A stretch of DNA of 64,000 bases, from positions 124,001-188,000 of the forward strand of contig CACYQI010000002.1 in the NCBI GenBank assembly GCA_902776455.1, given 5' to 3'. Origin of the DNA: an uncultured Bacteroidales bacterium (GTDB taxonomy: Bacteria > Bacteroidota > Bacteroidia > Bacteroidales > Bacteroidaceae). Positions 1,485 through 56,559 of this stretch are shown here, one piece after another. Position 1 is the first letter of the stretch; every line of letters starts with the position of its first letter. Both the position numbers and the translations under genes were made by a program. The notes under the pieces were generated by a model. It was not told where the DNA came from and did not search any database. It saw only the letters and a list, made by a program, of their open reading frames with translations.

Positions 1485-1554
1485 ATTGACCATTGACCAT
1501 TGACCATTGACCATTGACCATTAACCATTGACCATTGACCATTGAGAATTGACC
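1485..1554. repeat. Heptamer array (ATTGACC)n
   Basis: About ten near-perfect 7-nt units fill the gap between the ATPase stop and the TolC-family start. One unit differs (ATTAACC) and the last drifts to AGAATTGACC. The same heptamer occurs inside the aminopeptidase gene and in a signal peptide region further along. Confidence 0.9.
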
Positions 1555-4373: not shown

Positions 4374-6038
4374 TCAGGCGTTTTCGGTGTTGGACTTCTT
4401 TCCGCGGCGGCCTCGGCCTCCTCGGCGGGAGCGCGATTTCTTAGCCTCGGGAACCGCTGTCTCTTCGGTGGCAGACACGCCTTCGCCCTCCTTTGAAGGC
4501 AGGGAGTCTCTCTCGGACGGATTGTCTTTCAGGTCCGAATCGGTTGCGGGATGTTCTTCGGCTAAAGCCTTAGGCGGTACTGCTGCCTTCTTCTCCTGTT
4601 TGCGATTGCCATTGGCCGGGTTTTGCTTCTGCTGTTCTTCGCTTCGCTCAGGCGCAGGCGGAGCGTCCCTACGGTCGGGCGCTGGCGTCGCTTTGCTCTC
4701 CTGCTCCCTGCCCCTTGCCTCATGCTCCTTGCCCCTTGCTCCTTGCTCCTTGCCCCTTGCCCCTTGCTCCTTGCGCGAGCCGGGACGGAATCCTTCGAGC
4801 CAGAGCTGCAAGGGCGTGTCGAGCACCACTGGTTCGCGTTGCTGTGCGTCCTGCATCCAGGTGCGACCGGCTGCTGTGCTGAGGTAGTAGTACTGTCGCA
4901 TGTAGGTGTCGAGGAGCTTGAGGTCGTCCATGGTGAGCACCATAGGCCGTTGCGGTTCATAGACGGTGCGCCATGTGCGGTCGTCGATGTCGTTGACGCG
5001 CTGCAGGTCGTCGCACATGCCGAGGGAACGGATGCCTACGGAGGTGTCGTTGGTGAGCAGGAGCACCTTCTTGCCAATGGCGAAGAGTTCTACGGTGCGT
5101 CGGATGATGGCAGGGTCGGCAAAGGATGCGTGGTGGCACTCGCTGCCGATGCCTTCGATGCGCAGTCGGTTCTCTTTCTGCTGTGCGAGCATGAGGCGTT
5201 TGGCCAGTCGGGCGGCCACGTTGCGGCAGAGAGCTTCGTCGTTCCAGTCGGCATCCTTGTAGTTGACGGGTTCCTGTGCGGTGGCGAAGCGGTCTATCTC
5301 TTCGTAGGTCTCGCTCATCACCATGAAGCGTCCGCCTATGCGTTTCATCATCTTGCTGAGGCTCTCCAGCTGCCGCTCGAACTGCAGGCGTGCGTTGACG
5401 CGCGGGTCGCTGTGGCTGGAGCTGTGGCCTACGAGGAGTTCGAGCCAGATGTTGGTGTCGGAGAGGACGATGTCGTAGTCGAGGACGGCGAGGAGAATGT
5501 GTTCGAGCTGTTCGCAGCGTCGCTGTGCATCCTCCCAAGTGAGCATCTGTATCTGCTGGTCGCTCAGGAAGGGAATCTTTCCTCCCTGGCTCATGAGGTC
5601 GCAGAAGTCGCGCACTTTGATGGACTGCATGGGGGGGATGGTGATGGGCTTCTGAGGCTTCTGAGGCTCTTGGGGCTTCTGAGGCTCTTGGGGCTTCTGA
5701 GGCTCGTGTGGCTCTTGAGGCTTCTGAGGCTCTTGGGGCTTCTGGGAAGCTTGAGGCGCTGGTGCTTCGGGCGCCTTTGCCGGTTCTTCGGCTAAAGCCT
5801 CAGGCGCAGGCGGTACTTCGGCGGTCTTCTTTTTCCTTGTCGTGCGCTTCTTTGCCGGCTTTTCGGCGGGTGTCTCTTCCTGAGCCTCTGCGGGCTGTGG
5901 TGTTTCGGCCAAAGCTTCAGGCACAGTTGGCTCTTCGGCAGGCTTCGTCTCTGCTTTCTTGCGAGTACGTGCCGGGCGTTTGGCCTTTAATGTTTCCTCT
6001 GTTGAAATGGTTTCTGTCTTGCTTTCTTTTTTCTTCAT
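4374..6038 (-). CDS. PIN-like domain protein with basic, proline-rich and repeat-derived tails
   Basis: A 554-residue protein. Residues 1-85 are Lys/Arg/Glu/Ala-rich. Residues about 95-130 are a run of QKP/QEP triplets coded by a 9-nt tandem repeat. Residues about 140-400 form a folded core with the acidic pattern of PIN nucleases: LSDTNIWLELL, MSETYEEIDRF, then LLLTNDTS. The C-terminus holds about 26 residues of KEQGARG repeats coded by a 7-nt array (4701-4774) and ends in an RGGRGRRGKK tail suited to binding RNA. I infer a cytoplasmic RNase or RNA-binding protein. There is no antitoxin-like partner beside it, so a VapC-type role is unlikely. The fold call rests on motif spacing only. Confidence 0.6.
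   Translation of the reverse strand: MKKKESKTETISTEETLKAKRPARTRKKAETKPAEEPTVPEALAETPQPAEAQEETPAEKPAKKRTTRKKKTAEVPPAPEALAEEPAKAPEAPAPQASQKPQEPQKPQEPHEPQKPQEPQKPQEPQKPQKPITIPPMQSIKVRDFCDLMSQGGKIPFLSDQQIQMLTWEDAQRRCEQLEHILLAVLDYDIVLSDTNIWLELLVGHSSSHSDPRVNARLQFERQLESLSKMMKRIGGRFMVMSETYEEIDRFATAQEPVNYKDADWNDEALCRNVAARLAKRLMLAQQKENRLRIEGIGSECHHASFADPAIIRRTVELFAIGKKVLLLTNDTSVGIRSLGMCDDLQRVNDIDDRTWRTVYEPQRPMVLTMDDLKLLDTYMRQYYYLSTAAGRTWMQDAQQREPVVLDTPLQLWLEGFRPGSRKEQGARGKEQGARGKEHEARGREQESKATPAPDRRDAPPAPERSEEQQKQNPANGNRKQEKKAAVPPKALAEEHPATDSDLKDNPSERDSLPSKEGEGVSATEETAVPEAKKSRSRRGGRGRRGKKSNTENA
4701..4774. repeat. CCTTGCC/CCTTGCT heptamer array in the PIN-like gene
   Basis: About ten 7-nt units; 21 nt (three units) code the seven-residue KEQGARG repeat. 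Confidence 0.9.
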
Positions 6039-10020: not shown

Positions 10021-11927
10021 TCCTCTTCCGTCAGGTAGGGCGATAGCTCTTCATATACCTTCTTATGATATGCTTCGAGGTACGCCACTTCTTCCGGCGT
10101 CATCATGTCCCAGAGGACGGGTGTGAGGTCGATGGGACAAAGCGTGAGCGGTTCGAGACGCAGGAAGCGGCCGAACTCCGTTTCGCCGTCCTCGACGATG
10201 AGCATCGTGTTCTCGATGCGCACGCCATGCTTGCCTTGTCGGTAGATTCCGGGTTCGTTGGTGACGGTCATGCCTGCATGCAGCGGGGCAGGCTTCCATG
10301 TGTGACGTATCTGATGAGGCCCCTCGTGGACACAGAGATACGAGCCGACGCCGTGACCGGTGCCGTGTCCGTAGTTGATGCCGTGCTGCCACATGGCATA
10401 TCGGGCCAAGGCGTCAATCTGTGTGCCGCTGATGCCGTCGGGGAAACGTGTGAGTGCCAAGCGGATGTGTCCCTTGAGGACGAGCGTGTAGTCGAGCCGT
10501 TCTTCGTCCGTCAAAGGGCCGAGCGCGATGGTTCGCGTAATGTCGGTCGTGCCGTCCTGATACTGAGCGCCGCTGTCGAGCAGCAGCAGTCCTTTGGGTT
10601 CGAGCACGGCATCCGTCTCGGGCGTTGCTTCGTAGTGGACGATGGCGCCATGCGGTCCGTAGGCGGCAATCGTGTCGAAGGAGAGTCCTCTGTACAAGTC
10701 TTGTTCCGCCCTCAGCGACGTCAACTTCCTGTCGATGCTGATTTCCGTCTGCCCTCCGGCTTCCACGGCAGGCTTCAGCCAATGCAGGAACTTCACCATC
10801 GCCACGCCGTCGCGCACCATCGCCCTGCGGAAACCGGCTATCTCGGCAGCATTCTTGACCGACTTCAAAGACCCTACCAAACCTCCCCTTAAAGGGGAGG
10901 CTTTCTGAGCCTTGTCCTCTCCCTTTAAGGGAGAGATAGAGAGGGTCTGGAATTCTCCGTATGGTTTTACCCTTACACCTATTTTATTTAGGTAGTTCTT
11001 AACGCTGTCGTCGAGCTTTTCGCTGTCGATGAAGAGCGTCACGTCGTTCTGTGTGAGCAGGACATAGCTGACGAAGACGGGGTTGCAATGTACGTCGGAG
11101 CCGCGAAGGTTGAGGAGCCAGGCGATCTCGTCCAGTTGGGAGATGAGGATGCCCTCTGCCTTTTGCTCACGAAGCGCCTGCCGTACGCGTTCTATCTTGC
11201 TTTGGGCCGACTCTCCGGCGAACTCCAAAGGCTGAATCTCCACCTTGTTCATGGGGATGGGCGGACGGTCTGTCCAAAGCTCTTCGGCAGGGTCGAGGTC
11301 CGTGCGAAGCTTGATGCCGGCCTTGTCCAAAGCAGACCTCAGCTCCTCAATCTCAGATGGAGTGAAGACAGAGCCGTCGATACCGACCGTCTGCTCATTG
11401 ACCATTGACCGTTGACCATTGACCATTGCTTCGCCCGGCTCATTGAGCGTTGAACGTTGTTCATTGACCATTGACCATTGACCATTGACCATTGCTTCGC
11501 CCGGCTCATTGAGCGTTGAACGTTGTTCATTGACCATTGACCGTTGACCATTGACCATTGCTTCGCCCGGCTCATTATGAATTATGAATTGTGAATTATG
11601 AATTATATTGGTGAGCCACTCTTCGATGGAGGGCGTTTCAGGCAATCCGTCTTTCATTAGGCAGAATGGCGTGCCCTGGAGCTGCTGTTCGGCGGCGATG
11701 AAGTAGCGGCTGTCGGTCCATAGCGCCGCGTCGGAAAGTGTGACGACCGCTGTGCCGGCGCTTCCGTCGAAACCCGAGATCCACTTGCGCGTCTGCCAAT
11801 GTTCGGGCACGTACTCGCCCTGATGCGGGTCGGTGCTGGGGAAGATGAAGGCACACAGCCCGTTCCGCCGCAGGTATTCCCGCAGTTTTTCAACGCGTTC
11901 GTTAATGCTATTTGTAGTGTTACTCAT
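9990..11927 (-). CDS. pepP: Xaa-Pro aminopeptidase (M24B) with repeat-derived inserts
   Basis: A 645-residue cytoplasmic metallopeptidase that removes N-terminal residues preceding proline. The creatinase-type N-domain begins FIFPSTDPHQGEY, and the C-terminal pita-bread domain has all dinuclear-metal ligands: DSGAQYQDGTTDITR, GHGTGHGVG, VTNEPGIY and RIENTM. Three stretches look foreign. Residues about 107-177 contain NEPGEAMVNGQ..MVNEQRSTL units coded by three 66-bp tandem copies (11396-11608). Residues about 327-352 (SISPLKGEDKAQKASPLRGG) come from inverted palindromic elements. The end (RRSLSPTLP) comes from the 36-bp repeats. All keep frame and no catalytic residue is lost. Without the inserts, length would be near the usual ~590-600. 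Confidence 0.92.
   Translation of the reverse strand: MSNTTNSINERVEKLREYLRRNGLCAFIFPSTDPHQGEYVPEHWQTRKWISGFDGSAGTAVVTLSDAALWTDSRYFIAAEQQLQGTPFCLMKDGLPETPSIEEWLTNIIHNSQFIIHNEPGEAMVNGQRSMVNEQRSTLNEPGEAMVNGQWSMVNEQRSTLNEPGEAMVNGQRSMVNEQTVGIDGSVFTPSEIEELRSALDKAGIKLRTDLDPAEELWTDRPPIPMNKVEIQPLEFAGESAQSKIERVRQALREQKAEGILISQLDEIAWLLNLRGSDVHCNPVFVSYVLLTQNDVTLFIDSEKLDDSVKNYLNKIGVRVKPYGEFQTLSISPLKGEDKAQKASPLRGGLVGSLKSVKNAAEIAGFRRAMVRDGVAMVKFLHWLKPAVEAGGQTEISIDRKLTSLRAEQDLYRGLSFDTIAAYGPHGAIVHYEATPETDAVLEPKGLLLLDSGAQYQDGTTDITRTIALGPLTDEERLDYTLVLKGHIRLALTRFPDGISGTQIDALARYAMWQHGINYGHGTGHGVGSYLCVHEGPHQIRHTWKPAPLHAGMTVTNEPGIYRQGKHGVRIENTMLIVEDGETEFGRFLRLEPLTLCPIDLTPVLWDMMTPEEVAYLEAYHKKVYEELSPYLTEEERRSLSPTLP
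11396..11608. repeat. 66-bp tandem repeats of ATTGACC heptamers in pepP
   Basis: Three copies of GCTTCGCCCGGCTCATTGAG at 66-bp spacing (11428, 11494, 11560), separated by ATTGACC heptamers, and then an (AATTATG)n array. The 66-bp period equals 22 codons, so copy-number change by one unit preserves frame. Confidence 0.92.
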
Positions 11928-20026: not shown

Positions 20027-21092
20027 CTATGTATGGCCATCCCTCCTTGTCCCACTGGATGCGGGAGATGAAGAGCGGTCGGCTGCCGGGCCTTCGGCTT
20101 CCCTTGACGTGGCAATGGTAGAAGATGTACTCGCCTCCGTCCTTCGCCTTGAATATCTCGCCGCAATGGCCGGGGCCGTAGAACTTGTCGCCCTCGTTGC
20201 TGCGGAGTACTGTAGTGGCGAAGCCTTCCTTCATGGGGCGCCCTTCTCTATCGACGAAAGTGTCGGTCAGCTTCTTTGCCCTGCCCACTTGCAGCTGGTA
20301 GGTGTGGTCGCCGAAGAAGCCTGAGCTGACGAAAAGGTACCAGTAGCCGTCGTGGCGGTGCAGGTAGGAGCCTTCGAACACTTTCGAGCGGTCGGGACAT
20401 TCCTCGACGGTGAGGCCTGCCACGTGCTCGTACTTCGCCCCTTGCCCCTTGCTCCTTGCTCCTTGCTCCTTGCTCCTTGCCCCTTGCTCCTTGCTCCTTG
20501 CTCCTTGACCGTTGCTTCTTGCCCCTTGCCCCCTGCCCCTTGCCCCCTGCTTCAGGGAGAGTCCGTCCTTCTCAAGCTCAACGCGATATATGCCGCCCAC
20601 GCTTCCGAAGAAGAGCCACACCTTTCCCGTCTTGGGGTCGGTGACGACTTCGGGGTCGATGGTGTCGTGGATGCCAGTCACGCTGCTGCTTGTGATGATG
20701 CCCACAAACTGGAACTGCCCGGGAGCATACTCCTGCAGCACGCCGATGCTGCTGTCCTCGGCACTATTGTAGAGGGTGAGGTAGAGGTTGCGCTTGCCTG
20801 CCACGGTTGCCACGTCGGGTGCCCAGAAGCGCTCGGCTATGGCTTGCATCTTGCCCCAAGACGCCATGTCGATGGGAGCCACGTCCGACATCTCCCAATG
20901 GAAGAGGTCGTCGCTCACGAGAGCGCGTACAGGATTGGTGGCGAGACAATGGTAGCGGCCGTCCTCGCCAAGCCAGACAGTCGGGTCGGGCCAGTTGTGC
21001 GGCCAAACGGGATTTGTCACGTCTTGAGTCGTAGCCGTGCCTGCCCATAGCATAGCAAGCAGGAGAGTGAGAAAGCGAAACTTGCTCTTCAT
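19995..21092 (-). CDS. GH43-like secreted glycoside hydrolase with heptamer-coded insert
   Basis: A 365-residue secreted five-bladed propeller (signal peptide MKSKFRFLTLLLAMLWAG). GH43 landmarks are visible: WPDPTVWLGEDG (base aspartate), FWAPDVATVAGKRNLY, IDPEVVTDPKTGKVW (modulator region) and FEGSYLHRHDGYWYL (acid). Residues about 181-218 are a low-complexity KQGARGRGQGARSNGQ-type run coded by a (CCTTGCT/CCTTGCC)n array at 20437-20551. It sits between two blades, so it probably forms a surface loop. The C-terminal DPLTPFRGNK is coded by a palindromic element. Both foreign parts keep the frame. Substrate is unknown. Confidence 0.85.
   Translation of the reverse strand: MKSKFRFLTLLLAMLWAGTATTQDVTNPVWPHNWPDPTVWLGEDGRYHCLATNPVRALVSDDLFHWEMSDVAPIDMASWGKMQAIAERFWAPDVATVAGKRNLYLTLYNSAEDSSIGVLQEYAPGQFQFVGIITSSSVTGIHDTIDPEVVTDPKTGKVWLFFGSVGGIYRVELEKDGLSLKQGARGRGQGARSNGQGARSKEQGARSKEQGARSKGQGAKYEHVAGLTVEECPDRSKVFEGSYLHRHDGYWYLFVSSGFFGDHTYQLQVGRAKKLTDTFVDREGRPMKEGFATTVLRSNEGDKFYGPGHCGEIFKAKDGGEYIFYHCHVKGSRRPGSRPLFISRIQWDKEGWPYIDPLTPFRGNK
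20437..20551. repeat. CCTTGCC/CCTTGCT heptamer array in the GH43 gene
   Basis: About sixteen 7-nt units, same sequence family as 4701-4774 and 22145-22272, coding QGARSKE-type residues. Confidence 0.92.
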
Positions 21093-22144: not shown

Positions 22145-22272
22145 AGGGGCAAGGAGCAAGGGGCAAGGGGCAAGAGGATAGCATAACGTCTGTCTCCCCA
22201 GAGTCTCTTTGTTTCCTATTTACCCTTCTTATCATTTCTCTTGCTCCTTGCCCCTTGCTCCTTGCCCCTTAG
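22145..22272. repeat. Inverted pair of CCTTGCC/CCTTGCT heptamer arrays
   Basis: Arms 22145-22174 and 22240-22272 are reverse complements with one mismatch, separated by about 65 nt. Confidence 0.85.
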
Positions 22273-27148: not shown

Positions 27149-27371
27149 CACCCGAAGAAATTCTTAATTCTTAATTCTTAATTCTTAATTCTTAATTAAA
27201 ATTAAGGCTACGCCCTTGACAATTCATAATTCATAATTCATAATTCATAATTAGGCTACGCCCGAAGAAATTCTTAATTCTTATTTCTTAATTCTTAATT
27301 AAAATTAAGGCTACGCCCTTGACAATTCATAGTTTTCAATTTTCAATTTTCAACTTTCAACTTTCATTAAG
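27149..27371. repeat. Composite heptamer block: (ATTCTTA)n and (AATTCAT)n with GGCTACGCCC motifs
   Basis: The whole gap is repeat. The order CCCGAAGAAA, (TTCTTAA)n, TTAAGGCTACGCCCTTGACA, (ATTCATA)n, AGGCTACG is followed by a second, shorter copy of the same order. The last part changes to TTTCAAC units. Each AT-rich array is bounded by a GC-rich GGCTACGCCC motif, and arrays of different heptamer sequence alternate. Confidence 0.9.
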
Positions 27372-42508: not shown

Positions 42509-42620
42509 GAACCCCAAAAGGATGAAATTACATCTGTCACATCTGTCATATATGTCACTTTCATTTTATTCATCGGTATTCTGGGAGTGACAGATTATGT
42601 GACAGATGTGACAGATAAAC
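42509..42620 (-). repeat. Left ~112-bp terminal inverted repeat with 9-nt iterons
   Basis: The reverse complement of this block aligns along its whole length with 45504-45615. It contains ATCTGTCAC iterons (inner side), a short unique middle and GTGACAGAT iterons (outer side), ending in TTCATCCTTTTGGGG. Confidence 0.85.
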
Positions 42621-42696
42621 GCCCAAAAGTGGATTTCACATGCATTTTCCGTATTTTTTTTCTTTGCCAAAATTTGGATTTCTGCCGTTTTATTAC

Positions 42697-42704
42697 TAAT
42701 TTTG
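42697..42704 (+). promoter_or_regulatory. Bacteroidetes promoter (TAATTTTG) of the VapE unit
   Basis: TAATTTTG with TTTG at 42673-42676 as -33 element, inside the element and downstream of the left inverted repeat, 124 bp before the first gene. Confidence 0.6.
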
Positions 42705-42827
42705 TAGTCTAAAACACAAGATGAAAACACTAAGTATCTCTACTTTCGCAAGCTCAAGTGGAGTGGGGCAAAGAGTATGCTCCTATAATTGATCGAATGT
42801 GAAACTTAAGTAAACAATCTTTTTTTC

Positions 42828-43262
42828 ATGGGAAACGAAATTGACTATTCAACTATGCCGCACAACTATGAAGTGTGCTGGCATCGCACTTGCCCCATGG
42901 CGGAAACGTGCCTCAGACAGCTGGCCGCAGAACATCTGGAGGATAACGTGCGCTTCGTGAAGAGCGTGAACCTGCTGGCCGTACATCCCGAGACCGGCAC
43001 TTGCCGCAACTTCCGCCCTGTCCGGTACGTGCGTCATGCCTACGGCTTGCGCCACATCTACGACCAGGTGCCCTCTTCCGTCAAGAGAAAAATCTACTTC
43101 GATATCTGGAAACAGCTTGGCAACACGATGTACTACCACTACTACAACGAGCGACGTCCCATCACGCCTCGCGAACAGGCCATCATCGAGGCGGCCTTCC
43201 GCAAGCACGGCTTTGAGGGTCCCGTCAACTACCGGCGCACCGTGGAGGTCATCGACTGGTGA
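42828..43262 (+). CDS. DUF6078-like protein
   Basis: A 144-residue cytoplasmic protein without signal or membrane segments. Cysteines in EVCWHRTCPMAETCLRQLA near residue 16-33 and in TGTCRNFRPV near 65 could bind a metal or cluster. The C-terminal half is helical and basic, with RHIYDQVPSSVKRKIYFDI. I recognise the pattern as the DUF6078 family of Bacteroidales, whose function is unknown. It precedes the VapE-type gene by 109 bp and shares its element, so a role in replication or regulation of that element is a reasonable guess. Confidence 0.6.
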   Translation: MGNEIDYSTMPHNYEVCWHRTCPMAETCLRQLAAEHLEDNVRFVKSVNLLAVHPETGTCRNFRPVRYVRHAYGLRHIYDQVPSSVKRKIYFDIWKQLGNTMYYHYYNERRPITPREQAIIEAAFRKHGFEGPVNYRRTVEVIDW

Positions 43263-43371
43263 AGCCCCGGTTCTTACACCCTGCCTGTAAAATTTTTATC
43301 TCAATGATGTAAATTTTTTACACGCTGGGTGTAAAATGATTACACCTAACCTGTAAAACTTATATAAATAA

Positions 43372-45489
43372 ATGAAAAACACAAAAATGCACAAGGCAAT
43401 GGTTTTCACGTCATTGCGCACCAACCGCAAGACGCACAAGGTGCATCTGCGGAACATGTCGCTCACGACATTGACGGACATGATACGGCGAGAGTCGAAG
43501 CGGAACCAACTCGACAAGTTCCGCAGCATGACGCCCTTCCTCGAGGAACTGAGCGGCAAGATAGAGTTTAACATGCAGCGCATCAGCGTGGCGGCCAGTT
43601 TCCGCAAAGATGGAGCAGACGGCTGGTGCTTTGCGGCATACAACGGAGTGGTGCTGCTCAGCGTCGGACAACTGACAGGGCTGGACGAGGCACGGCTCGT
43701 GAAGCACCTGGCTACGCTGCACCCCTCGACGCTGGCCGCCTTCGTGGGCAGCAGCGGACGTAGCGCAAAAATCCTGGTGCGCGTGAGCCGAATAGATGGT
43801 TCGCTGCCCTCGACCGAGAGCGAAGCCCTTGCCTTCCACCGCAAAGCATACCTGCGTGCCTACACCACCTACGAGGGGACGCTGAACTTCCCCGTCACGC
43901 CCGCAGTTCCGACCCTGGAGCAGAACTTCCTGCGCACCTACGACCCTCAGCCCTATGTAAACCCGAAAGCCGCCCCGCTACTCGTGGACGAGAGCCTGGA
44001 TGCCATGCTGACAACGAAAGAGTCCTCTGCACTTCCGCCCCAACCGATGGAGCGGCTCGAACCGGGCCTGGAACAGTATGCAGAACTGGAGAAACGCTTC
44101 ACGGCAGTCATTACGAAACTGATGCTCACGGAGGCCAATCGGAAACTGGCAAAGGAAGAGCCGGAAGTCTTCTTCTCCAAACTGGCTCGCGAATGCTGCC
44201 GCACAGGTTTTCCGCAGGAGGAGGCAATATGTCACGCATGCAACGACTTCGGCAACTTACTCGACAAGGAGACCCTGCGCACGCTCTTCGAGAGCGCCTA
44301 CCAATTAGAGTCCGTCAGATTCGGAACGCAGTCGGGATACAACAAGACTCAACGCACCGCCATGATGCTGCACGAGTTCATGAAGAGTCGCTACGTGCTG
44401 AGACACAATGTGATACAGGATACTACCGAGTTTCGCGAAAACACCACTTGGGACACCAGCTTCCGCCTCCTCGACGACCGCATGCTCGGTAAGATGGTGT
44501 GCGAGGCACGACTGCGCGGCATCGACGTCTGGGACAAAGACGTGCGGCGCTATGCCCTCTCCACCGACACCCCATCGTTCGACCCCGTGGAGGCATTCCT
44601 CAGTTCTGTAAGCGGCTGTTGGGACGGAGTGGACCGCATAACTCAGCTGGCCGACACCGTAAAGACCCGCAATCCGCAGTGGCACAAGTGGTTCCGCCGC
44701 TGGTTCCTGTCGATGACAGCTCAGTGGATGGGCGTGATGGGAGCCTACGGCAACAGCGTCGCACCCCTGCTCATCGGGCGGCAGGGCTGGCGAAAGTCCA
44801 CCTTCTGCCGTCAGCTGCTGCCCGACGAACTGCAGTTCGGCTACACCGACCAGCTCGACCTCTCGAGCAAGAAGGAGGTGGACCGCACCATTTGCCAGTA
44901 TCTGCTGGTGAACCTCGACGAATTCGACCAACTGTCGCGCCACAATCAAGACGGCTACCTGAAGAACCTCCTGCAGCGAGCCGACATCCGCGCACGCAAA
45001 CCCTACAAGACACAGGTCAGCACCATGCGACGCTATGCCTCGTTCATCGGCACCAGTAACCAAAGCGACCTGCTCACCGACCCGTCGGGAAGCCGCCGCT
45101 ATCTGTGCGTGGAACTGTCGGGGCCCATCGATGTCGCTTGCCGCCCCAACTACCGCCAGCTCTATGCCCAGGCCGTGCAGCTCGTGGAACAGGGCGAGCG
45201 CTACTGGTTCGACGACAACGATGTGGAGGAAATCATGGAGAACAACCGCCGGTACATGAACATGGGCGTGGCCGAACTGACCTTCCACGATCTCTTCCGT
45301 CCGGCACAGCCCGACGAGGAGGGCTGCGAGTGGCTCAGCTCCACCGTCCTGCTCGAGGAAATCCGCAAGCACGTAGGCAGCCGTACCACCCTTTCGGCCA
45401 TCACCTTCGGACGCTACCTGAACGGCTTGCCCGGAATGCGTACCAAACGCACTTCACACGGCAACAAATTCTGCCTAAAACGCATCTGA
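43372..45489 (+). CDS. VirE/VapE-type P-loop protein with BT4734-like N-terminal domain
   Basis: A 705-residue protein. Residues about 1-190 match the BT4734/VirE N-terminal type (FRSMTPFLEELSGKIEF, DGWCFAAYNGVVLLSVGQL), related to archaeo-eukaryotic primase folds. A linker with a helical region follows. The C-terminal VapE-like ATPase (about 390-600) has Walker A LLIGRQGWRKSTFCRQLLP, where Arg takes the usual Gly position before Lys, Walker B YLLVNLDEFDQ and a sensor IGTSNQSDLL. The last ~80 residues are a winged-helix-like DUF3874-type tail. Such proteins occur in phage satellites and in Bacteroides near capsule loci. It ends 14 bp before the right iteron repeat. Confidence 0.82.
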   Translation: MKNTKMHKAMVFTSLRTNRKTHKVHLRNMSLTTLTDMIRRESKRNQLDKFRSMTPFLEELSGKIEFNMQRISVAASFRKDGADGWCFAAYNGVVLLSVGQLTGLDEARLVKHLATLHPSTLAAFVGSSGRSAKILVRVSRIDGSLPSTESEALAFHRKAYLRAYTTYEGTLNFPVTPAVPTLEQNFLRTYDPQPYVNPKAAPLLVDESLDAMLTTKESSALPPQPMERLEPGLEQYAELEKRFTAVITKLMLTEANRKLAKEEPEVFFSKLARECCRTGFPQEEAICHACNDFGNLLDKETLRTLFESAYQLESVRFGTQSGYNKTQRTAMMLHEFMKSRYVLRHNVIQDTTEFRENTTWDTSFRLLDDRMLGKMVCEARLRGIDVWDKDVRRYALSTDTPSFDPVEAFLSSVSGCWDGVDRITQLADTVKTRNPQWHKWFRRWFLSMTAQWMGVMGAYGNSVAPLLIGRQGWRKSTFCRQLLPDELQFGYTDQLDLSSKKEVDRTICQYLLVNLDEFDQLSRHNQDGYLKNLLQRADIRARKPYKTQVSTMRRYASFIGTSNQSDLLTDPSGSRRYLCVELSGPIDVACRPNYRQLYAQAVQLVEQGERYWFDDNDVEEIMENNRRYMNMGVAELTFHDLFRPAQPDEEGCEWLSSTVLLEEIRKHVGSRTTLSAITFGRYLNGLPGMRTKRTSHGNKFCLKRI

Positions 45490-45503
45490 ATCGACGGAAA
45501 AGC

Positions 45504-45615
45504 CTTTCATCTGTCACATCTGTCACACCATCTGTCACTCCCGAAACCCCGATGAACAATGTGAAAGTGACAGATGTAACAGATGTGACAGATGTTTTTC
45601 ATCGTTTTGGGTTTG
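45504..45615 (+). repeat. Right ~112-bp terminal inverted repeat with 9-nt iterons
   Basis: Contains ATCTGTCAC ATCTGTCAC ACC ATCTGTCAC, a middle CCGAAACCCCGATGAACAA, then GTGACAGAT GTAACAGAT GTGACAGAT and an outer TTTTCATCGTTTTGGG. It aligns in reverse orientation with 42509-42620. Confidence 0.85.
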
Positions 45616-45782
45616 TCTACTATTACTTAGGCAGTGCCTATCGTGACCTGAAAGACTACCCGCGGGCGGTGAATCATTTCCTGATGGCTGTAGATACAGC
45701 CAGACAATCGAAGTGCGCCGATACCCTGATATGGCAAAATACGAAGGCTTCAGATGAGCGTGGCGTACAACTCTTCCATTAA
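45597..45782 (+). pseudogene. TPR-protein fragment at the right border of the VapE unit
   Basis: About 60 codons reading FVYYYLGSAYRDLKDYPRAV and DTARQSKCADTLIWQ, a clear tetratricopeptide repeat, with no gene start of its own. Its upstream side merges into the outer end of the iteron repeat and its stop overlaps the convergent glycosyltransferase by 4 bp. It looks like the stump of a larger Bacteroidales TPR protein. Confidence 0.55.
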
Positions 45783-56099: not shown

Positions 56100-56559
56100 T
56101 TGGCATTACGCTGCGGATAAATACTTTTTCAGTGGCATGGAATTATTTCCAAGGTTTTGAAAAAGTTTTTATTCAAGTTTCGCATGCTTTACTTCGTTTA
56201 AGCAACCATGTTTTCTCATACGTGAGAAATCAATTTATCACATGTGAGAATTCAGTTTATCACACATGAGAAAAAAGGAAGCGACGTGTGGCGATTTGAT
56301 GGAACTCTGTTTATGCACAGGCCAAACGCCAGAGACTTTACCCGAAATCTGCTACGAATCTGCCACATTTCCCACAATCTGCAACAAATCTGCCACACGT
56401 ATATCATCCTGTATATCAAAACGATAATGCATGTATGTAGCAGATTGGCAGATTTTTTAGGGAAAAACTCTGGTGACGCGCGCATACGTAACATTAATGC
56501 GAAACTTGAAAGTTTTTTGTCGCAGGCATTGTGGGATTTTGTTGTTCGTGGGAATGGAA
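56100..56559. other. Gene-free stretch with CACATGTGAG and AATCTGCCAC repeats
   Basis: No supported gene. Three CACATGTGAG-like units lie at about 56217-56272. Four to five AATCTGCnAC units occur at 56345-56398, with an inverted partner GTAGCAGATTGGCAGATT at about 56437-56454. Confidence 0.55.

Follow-up and report, generated by a model that had tools for sequence, protein, structure and literature searches.

Our analysis showed that the VapE-type gene of the window, the whole 64-kb stretch of DNA examined here, is enclosed by its own pair of inverted arms built from short iterons (Table 1), and that this locus belongs to a large Bacteroidales class. As far as their sequence tells, the arms resemble origins of the kind that an initiator recognises, and together with VapE they look like a selfish repeat family made from replication parts, with no transposase. 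On balance we favour, if only slightly, an initiator-origin module in which origin-like arms bracket the gene and are multiplied in trans, working in the manner of a REPtron with an unrelated protein.

Table 1. Features of the window locus and of the solo arm found in the same window.
Feature	Positions	Strand	Description
Left arm	42510..42622	+	three ATCTGTCAC-type iterons, spacer containing TTTATTCATCGG, three inverted iterons
DUF6078 gene, 144 aa	42828..43262	+	PF19555, 1e-33
Cluster of palindromic TTACAC..TGTAAAA repeats	43274..43365	+	just 5' of VapE gene
VapE-type initiator, 705 aa	43372..45489	+	BT4734-like_N 67-195, VapE helicase 416-629, DUF3874 633-700
Right arm	45502..45614	-	inverted left-arm copy; begins 12 nt past VapE stop codon
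Solo arm, AATCTGCCA family	56331..56470	-	between ORFs; the single one in the window

The reverse complement of the left arm aligns with the right arm over ~113 bp (alignment score 134), and in a similarity search the pair was recovered with an E value of 7e-28, ~110 bp being ~85% identical. The 112-bp inverted iteron repeats claimed in the first-pass annotation are thus real, with their coordinates shifted to those of Table 1 and with one-base gaps needed in the alignment (ungapped over the 112-nt coordinates, 32/112 positions are identical). The order of iterons that it gave also holds: reading outward from the genes, ATCTGTCAC comes first and GTGACAGAT lies at the outer end in both arms. 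On the plus strand, the iterons of the left arm lie at 42532, 42541 and 42550 in one orientation (>) and at 42587, 42599 and 42608 in the other (<), and those of the right arm at 45509, 45518 and 45530 (>) and at 45567, 45576 and 45585 (<). Nine of these 12 are exact, the copies at 42541, 42550 and 45576 having one mismatch; the whole window contains nine exact copies of the 9-nt iteron, every one inside the two arms, for a random 9-mer expectation of ~0.5. A 17-nt double iteron has three copies in the 87%-complete assembly, all within these arms. Each arm also contains a self-inverted repeat (I2, I3; 95%), and the single-strand DNA folds of the two arms have z scores of -7.6 and -7.2.

Between the arms, ORF and Pfam searches found only DUF6078 and VapE, and no integrase, transposase or packaging gene; the immediate neighbours of the locus are CotH-type and glycosyltransferase genes. 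The gene pair had been called DUF6078-like and VirE/VapE at first sight, and Pfam agrees (PF19555 for the former; PF08800 (BT4734-like_N, 2.4e-26), PF05272 (VapE) and PF12990 (DUF3874) for the latter). The nearest solved structure to the VapE protein in a fold search is the SaPI initiator PriRep1 (7pds, E 3e-15), and a sequence profile links the protein to Rep/PriRep-type initiator helicases (E 4e-13). Its C-terminal DUF3874 domain looks winged-helix-like from our reading of the model. The N-terminal PF08800 domain is shared with the BT4734-like family, which is listed among the AEP families as belonging to no clade, with a motif I of the form hhhDhD/E (PMC5862659). This motif was not found here: among 41 aligned proteins, and with the motif placed by eye, position 97 is acidic in 21/41 and position 99 in 3/38 listed, and the metal-binding motif I of this AEP-derived domain seems to have been lost, provided that it was placed correctly. 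The alignment (A4) covers 41 of 81 proteins; L124 and L139 were omitted for an internal stop, L113, L132, L157, L159, L166, L169, L170, L173 and L174 were left out following an earlier list, with no test of their own, and the remaining proteins never entered it. An alignment of 29 DUF6078 proteins has cysteines 17, 22 and 28 in every row and Cys 59 in nearly all, and a PDB fold search with the window's DUF6078 protein gave no match; this Cys-rich protein is probably a regulator or loader, which is a guess. Inspection by eye also showed palindrome clusters, with other sequences, in L207 and, at L065, upstream of the VapE gene.

Inverted arms surround the gene in 42 of 81 homologous loci, a set made up of the best 80 of 533 relatives plus the window, at an inverted-repeat score cut of 36, with shuffle maxima never above 33; the two-arm test failed in the other 39, which include one-arm loci or short contigs. 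When left arms are compared with right arms, 42/72 pairs from one locus match, as against 130/5,112 pairs from different loci, the top scores among the latter coming largely from loci that share iterons. In 38 of the 42 loci the right arm begins no more than 60 nt from the end of the VapE match, and the outer boundary of arm-to-arm similarity is abrupt in many loci. Among 19 elements chosen for a clear 8-mer, 37/38 arms have iterons in two orientations around a spacer (median 39 nt, range 29-69). A self-inverted signal is present just 3' of the gene in 26/42 loci versus 1/74 in control DNA 2 kb away; it was also scored in 9/38 loci negative for inverted repeats, including L132 (an artefact of an N run) and some plain hairpins. 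An earlier set of 40 loci had nine with inverted repeats scoring 36 or more: in L048, L049, L057, L060 and L068 the gene lies between iteron arms, the repeats of L065, L077 and L081 are of other kinds, and the nature of the repeat in L072 is ambiguous. The initial linking of these repeats to VapE/DUF6078 pairs stands in part for their placement and falls for their sequence: the window's own repeat sequence is absent from the other loci, about half of which have a version of their own at the corresponding position.

Across elements, iterons of 8-9 nt are arranged in arms of ~110 bp, and some twenty iteron versions, counted by eye, occur in this one geometry. Judged from the sequences, iteron turnover is fast, since L110 and L111 have helicase regions 90% identical and different iterons, whereas L107 and L111, at 83% identity, have their iterons in common. 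The N-domain had been put forward as the reader of the iterons, a proposal that found no support: in 34 elements (561 non-independent pairs), its similarity was not linked to shared iterons once helicase similarity was controlled (partial rho 0.018, p 0.67), and L066 and L068, in which Pfam finds DUF3874 and no BT4734-like_N, still have an iteron arm downstream, and L068 one upstream too. The C-terminal region came closest of the domains, as a weak hint (partial rho 0.081, p 0.055), and co-variation across these elements mapped iteron reading to no single domain. A further triplet comparison drew on few proteins.

Relatives also have arms at a distance from any VapE gene, which makes the arm itself the dispersed unit. 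We examined gene-free arm copies in B. bouchesdurhonensis (19), B. faecichinchillae (16) and B. faecalis (4), and all 39 avoid ORFs of 120 aa or more, which 509 of 760 random windows overlap. B. congonensis has a 535-bp two-arm unit without VapE, a second arm family has 10 matches in B. faecis, none of them on the contig bearing the L119 element, and a 665-bp unit lies at two sites in one genome, 97% identical (L272/L273). For the L106 family, two of the eight genomes searched contain the element's own two arms alone and three gave no match. Of the dispersed-arm loci fetched from B. bouchesdurhonensis, 14/18 are occupied in B. faecichinchillae as well, and much of the spread is therefore old. 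Cross-species arm identities are mixed, with one solo site favouring recent copying within B. faecalis, and site Z being 95-99% alike across species and just 86-90% like other compared arms. The window's solo arm is matched (score 131 versus a shuffle maximum of 48.5) by the left arm of a different VapE element; this element, consisting of DUF6078, VapE and the left arm, lies elsewhere in the genome, on a separate contig (G000:C1, L047:3209-3348). Repeats without the genes, which the first-pass annotation took as an argument against their association, thus occur in relatives (the 39 copies in three genomes), while the window locus's own iteron family has no solo copies in its assembly. The annotation's suggestion of origin-like sites, or of a replicative element without an integrase, is partly supported, by the initiator-like and origin-like look of the parts and by the lack of integrase and transposase between the arms. 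A closed element whose ends occur nowhere else finds no support, the arms being dispersed in relatives.

Empty sites, also proposed at that stage as a check, were sought by locating the flanks of L125, L119, L118, L243, L244 and L272 in close relatives. Base-by-base comparison of seven sites revealed neither a clean empty site nor a target-site duplication; the sites are occupied in the relative, rearranged, or different by more than the arm, the nearest case being L281/L302, where B. faecichinchillae lacks one arm plus neighbouring bases. Circular forms from virome records were set aside, the six MT83xxxx records inspected being linear (unverified) and free of exact terminal direct repeats. 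Inverted repeats scoring at least 36 flank the gene in 3/6 of these virome records and in 1/4 fetched PLSDB matches.

If the arms were the TIRs of an ordinary transposon, mobilised by an unlinked host DDE or HUH transposase, the solo arms would be MITEs and VapE would be cargo. The existence of solo and two-arm gene-free copies and the abrupt outer end of the arm similarity fit this idea, as does the lack of a transposase inside the window unit, which at the same time sets it apart from a DDE/HUH insertion sequence or MITE. We nevertheless consider it unlikely: the sequence of the arms goes with the particular VapE gene that they flank, a single external transposase would hardly be expected to read so many iteron versions, the right arm keeps its short distance from VapE, and, as far as the seven site comparisons reach, target duplications were not seen. 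P. gingivalis, itself one of the Bacteroidales, also has miniature repeats scattered over its genome, BrickBuilt and related MITEs, with 12-nt IS5-type-like terminal repeats and internal 23-nt tandem repeats; the words VirE, helicase and primase are absent from that text (PMC4596501).

The second explanation, that VapE and its arms are the replication block of a defective phage satellite or integrated replicon, with two origins, stranded in chromosomes, is to our minds improbable as well. It gains from PriRep1 being the closest fold, from VapE matches in 249 phage records (MT83xxxx among them) and to PHROG helicase/primase families, and from an iteron-like stretch seen by eye 3' of the gene in two of five viral-contig loci (L325, L326). 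In SaPIs one iteron cluster lies 3' of the initiator gene, and one window cluster lies directly 3' of VapE. The window arms are like SaPI origins as these are described in PMC9894130, where opposed repeats load two head-to-head helicases, and their layout is also that described for SV40 origins; the likeness to SaPIs/PICIs extends to a Rep/PriRep-type initiator helicase and, in layout only, to opposed iterons around a spacer. In contrast to SaPIs/PICIs, two inverted clusters flank the window gene, genomes contain additional copies at other sites, and the arms enclose no gene for integration, excision or packaging. Moreover, an IMG/VR scan returned only five close relatives, the four fetched PLSDB matches have chromosomal-type genes near VapE (e.g. 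priA, shikimate kinase, argC, mnmE), and the dispersed arms would be left unexplained. Parvovirus-like replicons have hairpin terminal repeats with initiator iterons, an HUH nicking domain in Rep and a free linear form; the folding and layout of the window arms would be compatible with hairpin terminal repeats; the VapE N-domain is AEP-type. The replication protein of the crenarchaeal plasmid pRN1 is a primase-helicase. According to the part of PMC4234260 available, the minimal pRN1 replicon has an essential stretch directly downstream of the replication protein gene, an adjacency shared by our locus, although pRN1 is a plasmid and that part of the paper speaks of no dispersed copies.

Alternatively, a domesticated VapE could serve the host by reading the arms as sites for regulation, for termination-like functions or for chromosome organisation, with selection on gene expression maintaining their dispersal. 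The location of all 39 dispersed arms outside ORFs, their strong inverted-repeat folding and the many sites common to several species would agree with such a role, but it is made quite unlikely by the multiplicity of VapE genes within single genomes (eight Bacteroides genomes searched had 3-14 PF08800 matches each), by fast iteron turnover and by the duplicated L272/L273 unit. Lastly, chance clusters of short repeats near the gene, with no functional link, are scarcely credible despite other short tandem tracts in the window, being contradicted both by the pairing of arms with their own partners rather than with strangers' and by the self-inverted signal relative to controls.

We therefore return to the initiator-origin module and its resemblance to REPtrons. 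REP repeats have a GTAG-type motif. As described in PMC8266576, palindromes border the REPtron coding sequence, most repeats lie genome-wide, the protein and repeat families have co-evolved, and there is no evidence for movement of the protein gene itself. The gene in the window and in about half of its relatives is likewise bordered by its own repeats, and such repeats are mostly dispersed and extragenic in three Bacteroides genomes, the window genome having one solo arm, of another family. The protein here is a VapE/AAA+-type initiator rather than an HUH nuclease (TnpA-REP/RAYT), and the repeats are ~110-bp two-sided clusters of 8-9-nt iterons, whereas REP palindromes measure 20-40 bp (PMC3733652). 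In the mechanism we propose, the VapE protein would recognise its own arms by their iterons, the likely reader being the putative winged-helix-like C-terminal domain, and within each arm it would load as two head-to-head hexamers where the iterons oppose one another. The resulting unwinding and replication would serve the module in keeping and copying its arms, with one inverted arm kept on each side of the gene and extra arms spreading in trans to intergenic sites. More tentatively, and with rather more doubt than confidence, we suggest a new class of transposable repeats, in which AAA+/SF3-type replication initiators, in place of transposases or recombinases, have origin-like iteron arms as mobile units, each initiator spreading its own family into intergenic DNA via local replication, with pairs co-changing quickly and several independent pairs in each Bacteroidales genome.

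If this is right, the uncharacterised PF08800 protein group would acquire a testable job, and its natural series of matched initiator/iteron pairs could give access to the DNA-recognition rules of such helicases. It would also explain a class of intergenic Bacteroides repeats of which we found no description in the open-licence literature searched. Replication initiators would then drive dispersed bacterial repeat families, a role so far proposed for the HUH transposases of REPtrons.

Our analysis showed that the VapE-type gene of the window lies, together with a DUF6078 gene, between two inverted iteron arms, as the first-pass annotation had claimed for both the arms and the gene pair. The arms are about 85% identical, with small gaps, when one is inverted against the other (see table), and in each of them a spacer separates three ATCTGTCAC-type 9-mers from an opposing trio of GTGACAGAT-type 9-mers. 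Nine of the twelve iterons are exact and are the only exact copies in the 64-kb window; an assembly-wide search found the double iteron solely in these two arms. The VapE gene encodes a BT4734-like_N/VapE/DUF3874 protein, and on the opposite strand the element has a CotH-type gene as one neighbour and a glycosyltransferase gene as the other. An open frame directly outside the right arm resembles, by eye, a TPR-type protein's C-terminal part (GSAYRDLKDYPRAVNHFLMA...), with no N-terminal part noticed left of the element; it is perhaps a gene damaged by element insertion, or an older remnant. Tandem-repeat tracts with inverted copies are another short-repeat kind in the source genome.

Coordinates of arms, repeats and neighbouring features in the window and in the loci compared (L numbers)
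Feature	Location	Relation	Basis
Left arm	window 42510-42622	inverted relative to right arm	alignment
Right arm	window 45502-45614	inverted copy of left arm	alignment
Solo arm	window 56331-56470	aligns with L047 left arm	
TPR-type frame	window 45612-45782	directly outside right arm	by eye
Palindrome cluster	window 43274-43365	upstream of VapE gene	
~7-nt tandem-repeat tracts	window 1485-1545, 4709-4774, 11396-11560, 20437-20546, 22145-22270, 27159-27298		
HU-type gene	L057:6299-6937	just outside right arm	PF18291
HU-type gene	L060:1519-2130	just outside right arm	tblastn or eye only
~248-bp palindrome cluster	L243:1975-2222		
Homology break	L116:6956-6976	inside right arm	
Second-family arm	L273:1170-1280	adjoins repeat unit	by eye

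The window locus belongs to a class. VapE-type matches number five in the source assembly and occur in 27 of the 61 genomes searched (source genome counted), and a scan in which a single genome stood for each species gave 533 relatives; the best 80 of them, which were kept, come from Bacteroides, Prevotella, Parabacteroides and other Bacteroidales. Among these best 80 and the window (81 loci), inverted arms flank the VapE gene in 42 at a score of at least 36, the highest shuffle score listed being 33 (maximum of five shuffles per locus). The first-pass annotation had set VapE/DUF6078 loci lacking the window's repeats against its own reading; iteron sequence does differ between elements, but about half of the loci have arms of their own, and 39 of the 81 fail the two-arm test. 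Aligned arms of the two-arm loci are mostly ~90-140 bp long. Upstream, 37-1,197 nt separate the left arm from the VapE match; the start of the right arm ranges from 37 nt before the end of that match to 184 nt beyond it, and in 38 of the 42 it falls within the first 60 nt beyond. DUF6078 is between the arms in 22 and just outside them in two. Two elements, L057 and L060, have an HU-type gene beside the right arm.

Iteron sequence is element-specific, with ATCTGTCAC in the window and ATCTTCCAC, AATCTGCCA, TTGCATACAC, TTTGTTGTCA, GTGAGGGCAA, GGTGATAG and others elsewhere; arm geometry is constant. Of 38 arms, taken from 19 elements chosen for a clear 8-mer, 37 hold iterons of both orientations, and the spacer measures 29-69 nt, with a median of 39. 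Left and right arm of one locus match in 42 of the 72 loci whose flanks are long enough, against 130 of 5,112 pairs in which the right arm is a stranger's; in 30 of the 72, the one best match of the left arm is its own partner. Loci L110 and L111 have different iterons despite 90% identical helicase regions, and L107 and L111 have iterons in common though their proteins are more distant. Some arms with different iterons (window, L006 and L019) hold the same spacer word, TTTATTCATCGG or its complement, a shortened form of which occurs in several Bacteroides arms.

Arms without a VapE gene exist in several Bacteroides genomes. B. congonensis has a 535-bp unit with both arms and no VapE, and its VapE element recurs in another genome (G079) at 85% identity, with similarity that extends 53 and 33 nt beyond the arms. 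Four arms of B. faecalis lie away from its VapE element (L118) and are 86-98% identical to the left arm of that element; three of them are part of longer repeats (~440-600 bp) with internal palindromes. With VapE-adjacent arms left out, B. bouchesdurhonensis has at least 19 dispersed arms and B. faecichinchillae at least 16, both lower bounds from 20 regions taken per genome. None of the 39 dispersed arms lies in an ORF of at least 120 aa (overlap at most 8%), whereas 509 of 760 random windows from the same DNA overlap such an ORF by half or more. A second iteron family, that of L106, has 10 matches in B. faecis, all on contigs other than the one with the L119 element, matches only the element's own two arms in B. 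bouchesdurhonensis and B. faecichinchillae, and has zero matches in three of the eight genomes searched.

A ~248-bp palindrome cluster is itself dispersed, with many sites in B. faecichinchillae (G064), B. bouchesdurhonensis (G067), B. congonensis (G061) and genomes G062, G076, G079 and G087, and adjoins an arm at some places; clusters of other sequence are found upstream of the window's VapE gene and, by eye, in L207 and L065.

The source genome holds a further BT4734/VapE element (L047, contig C1), in which a left arm of AATCTGCCA iterons accompanies the DUF6078 and VapE genes, with no iterons seen by eye in the 220 nt after the VapE gene. The solo arm of the window aligns with this left arm over 140 bp at a score of 131 (maximum 48.5 in 300 shuffles), against 60 with the window's own left arm. 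The window thus shows arm dispersal in trans, though for a family other than its own. Repeats without the genes, which the first-pass annotation had set against its own reading, are found in Bacteroides relatives (the 39 dispersed arms), but no solo copy of the window's own family was seen in the assembly, which is 87% complete.

The picture of recent arm copying is mixed. At one solo site the B. faecalis arm shares 98% identity with the VapE left arm, as against 93-95% for the corresponding site of two sister species; at another site, Z, the three species agree at 95-99%, and the other arms compared reach only 86-90% likeness to it. Fourteen of 18 dispersed-arm loci taken from B. bouchesdurhonensis are occupied in B. 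faecichinchillae too, so that the spread is largely old. The empty sites sought after the first pass did not turn up, site comparisons between close relatives yielding neither a clean empty site nor a target duplication. At L116 the B. bouchesdurhonensis sequence follows the B. faecalis element only as far as ~20 nt into the right arm and differs in the flank beyond, perhaps marking a truncated or one-ended product. At L273, by eye, an arm of a second iteron family (GTGAGAGCA) adjoins a GGTGATAG-family repeat unit; this arm is absent from the matching B. faecichinchillae site (L293), although the compared insertion exceeds the arm in size.

The VapE model (mean pLDDT 84.9, pTM 0.56) has its best structure match in PriRep1 (7pds, six chains, E 3e-15 to 1.6e-14), followed by other primase-helicases, and a sequence profile likewise matches 7pds (E 4e-13). 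PriRep1 is a SaPI initiator. The AEP-type N-domain appears to have lost motif I (as defined in PMC5862659) at the position where we placed it, and the secondary structure of the model lets the chain end be read as winged-helix-like. Two VapE proteins with DUF3874 and without the N-domain (Pfam) also have an iteron arm downstream (L066 and L068), as do, by eye, L073 and L075 among 16 such loci inspected; of these four, only L068 has an upstream arm as well (arm-pair score 51). DUF6078 is a compact Cys-rich protein (model pLDDT 93.4), with a best PDB match at E 0.95.

SaPI origins, like that of SV40, load two head-to-head helicases on oppositely oriented repeats, according to PMC9894130. Window-type arms fit this plan in their layout, from which we infer that VapE loads on its arms; they differ from it in that two inverted origin-like arms surround the gene and further arms are dispersed. 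The closest organisation is the REPtron, with REPs genome-wide, a mostly single-copy tnpA-REP gene and, according to PMC8266576, no evidence of gene mobility. By analogy, we read VapE and its arms as a REPtron-like system run by a replication initiator, in which arms would be copied, at a guess, by template switching during local replication. Copying could also take a strand-based route, since eight chosen arms are predicted to fold as single strands better than shuffles (z -7.6 to -3.1). VapE elements may also have a phage link: a viral-contig scan gave only five related loci, of which two (L325 and L326) have by eye an iteron-like stretch after the VapE gene, and three of six virome records inspected have flanking inverted repeats. 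Among the open-licence papers listed by our literature searches, titles and abstract starts gave no description of the arms or of a link between them and VapE. Each half of the system has a known counterpart, and we propose, tentatively and at somewhat less than an even chance, that initiator-driven arms could represent a new class of repeat mobiliser.
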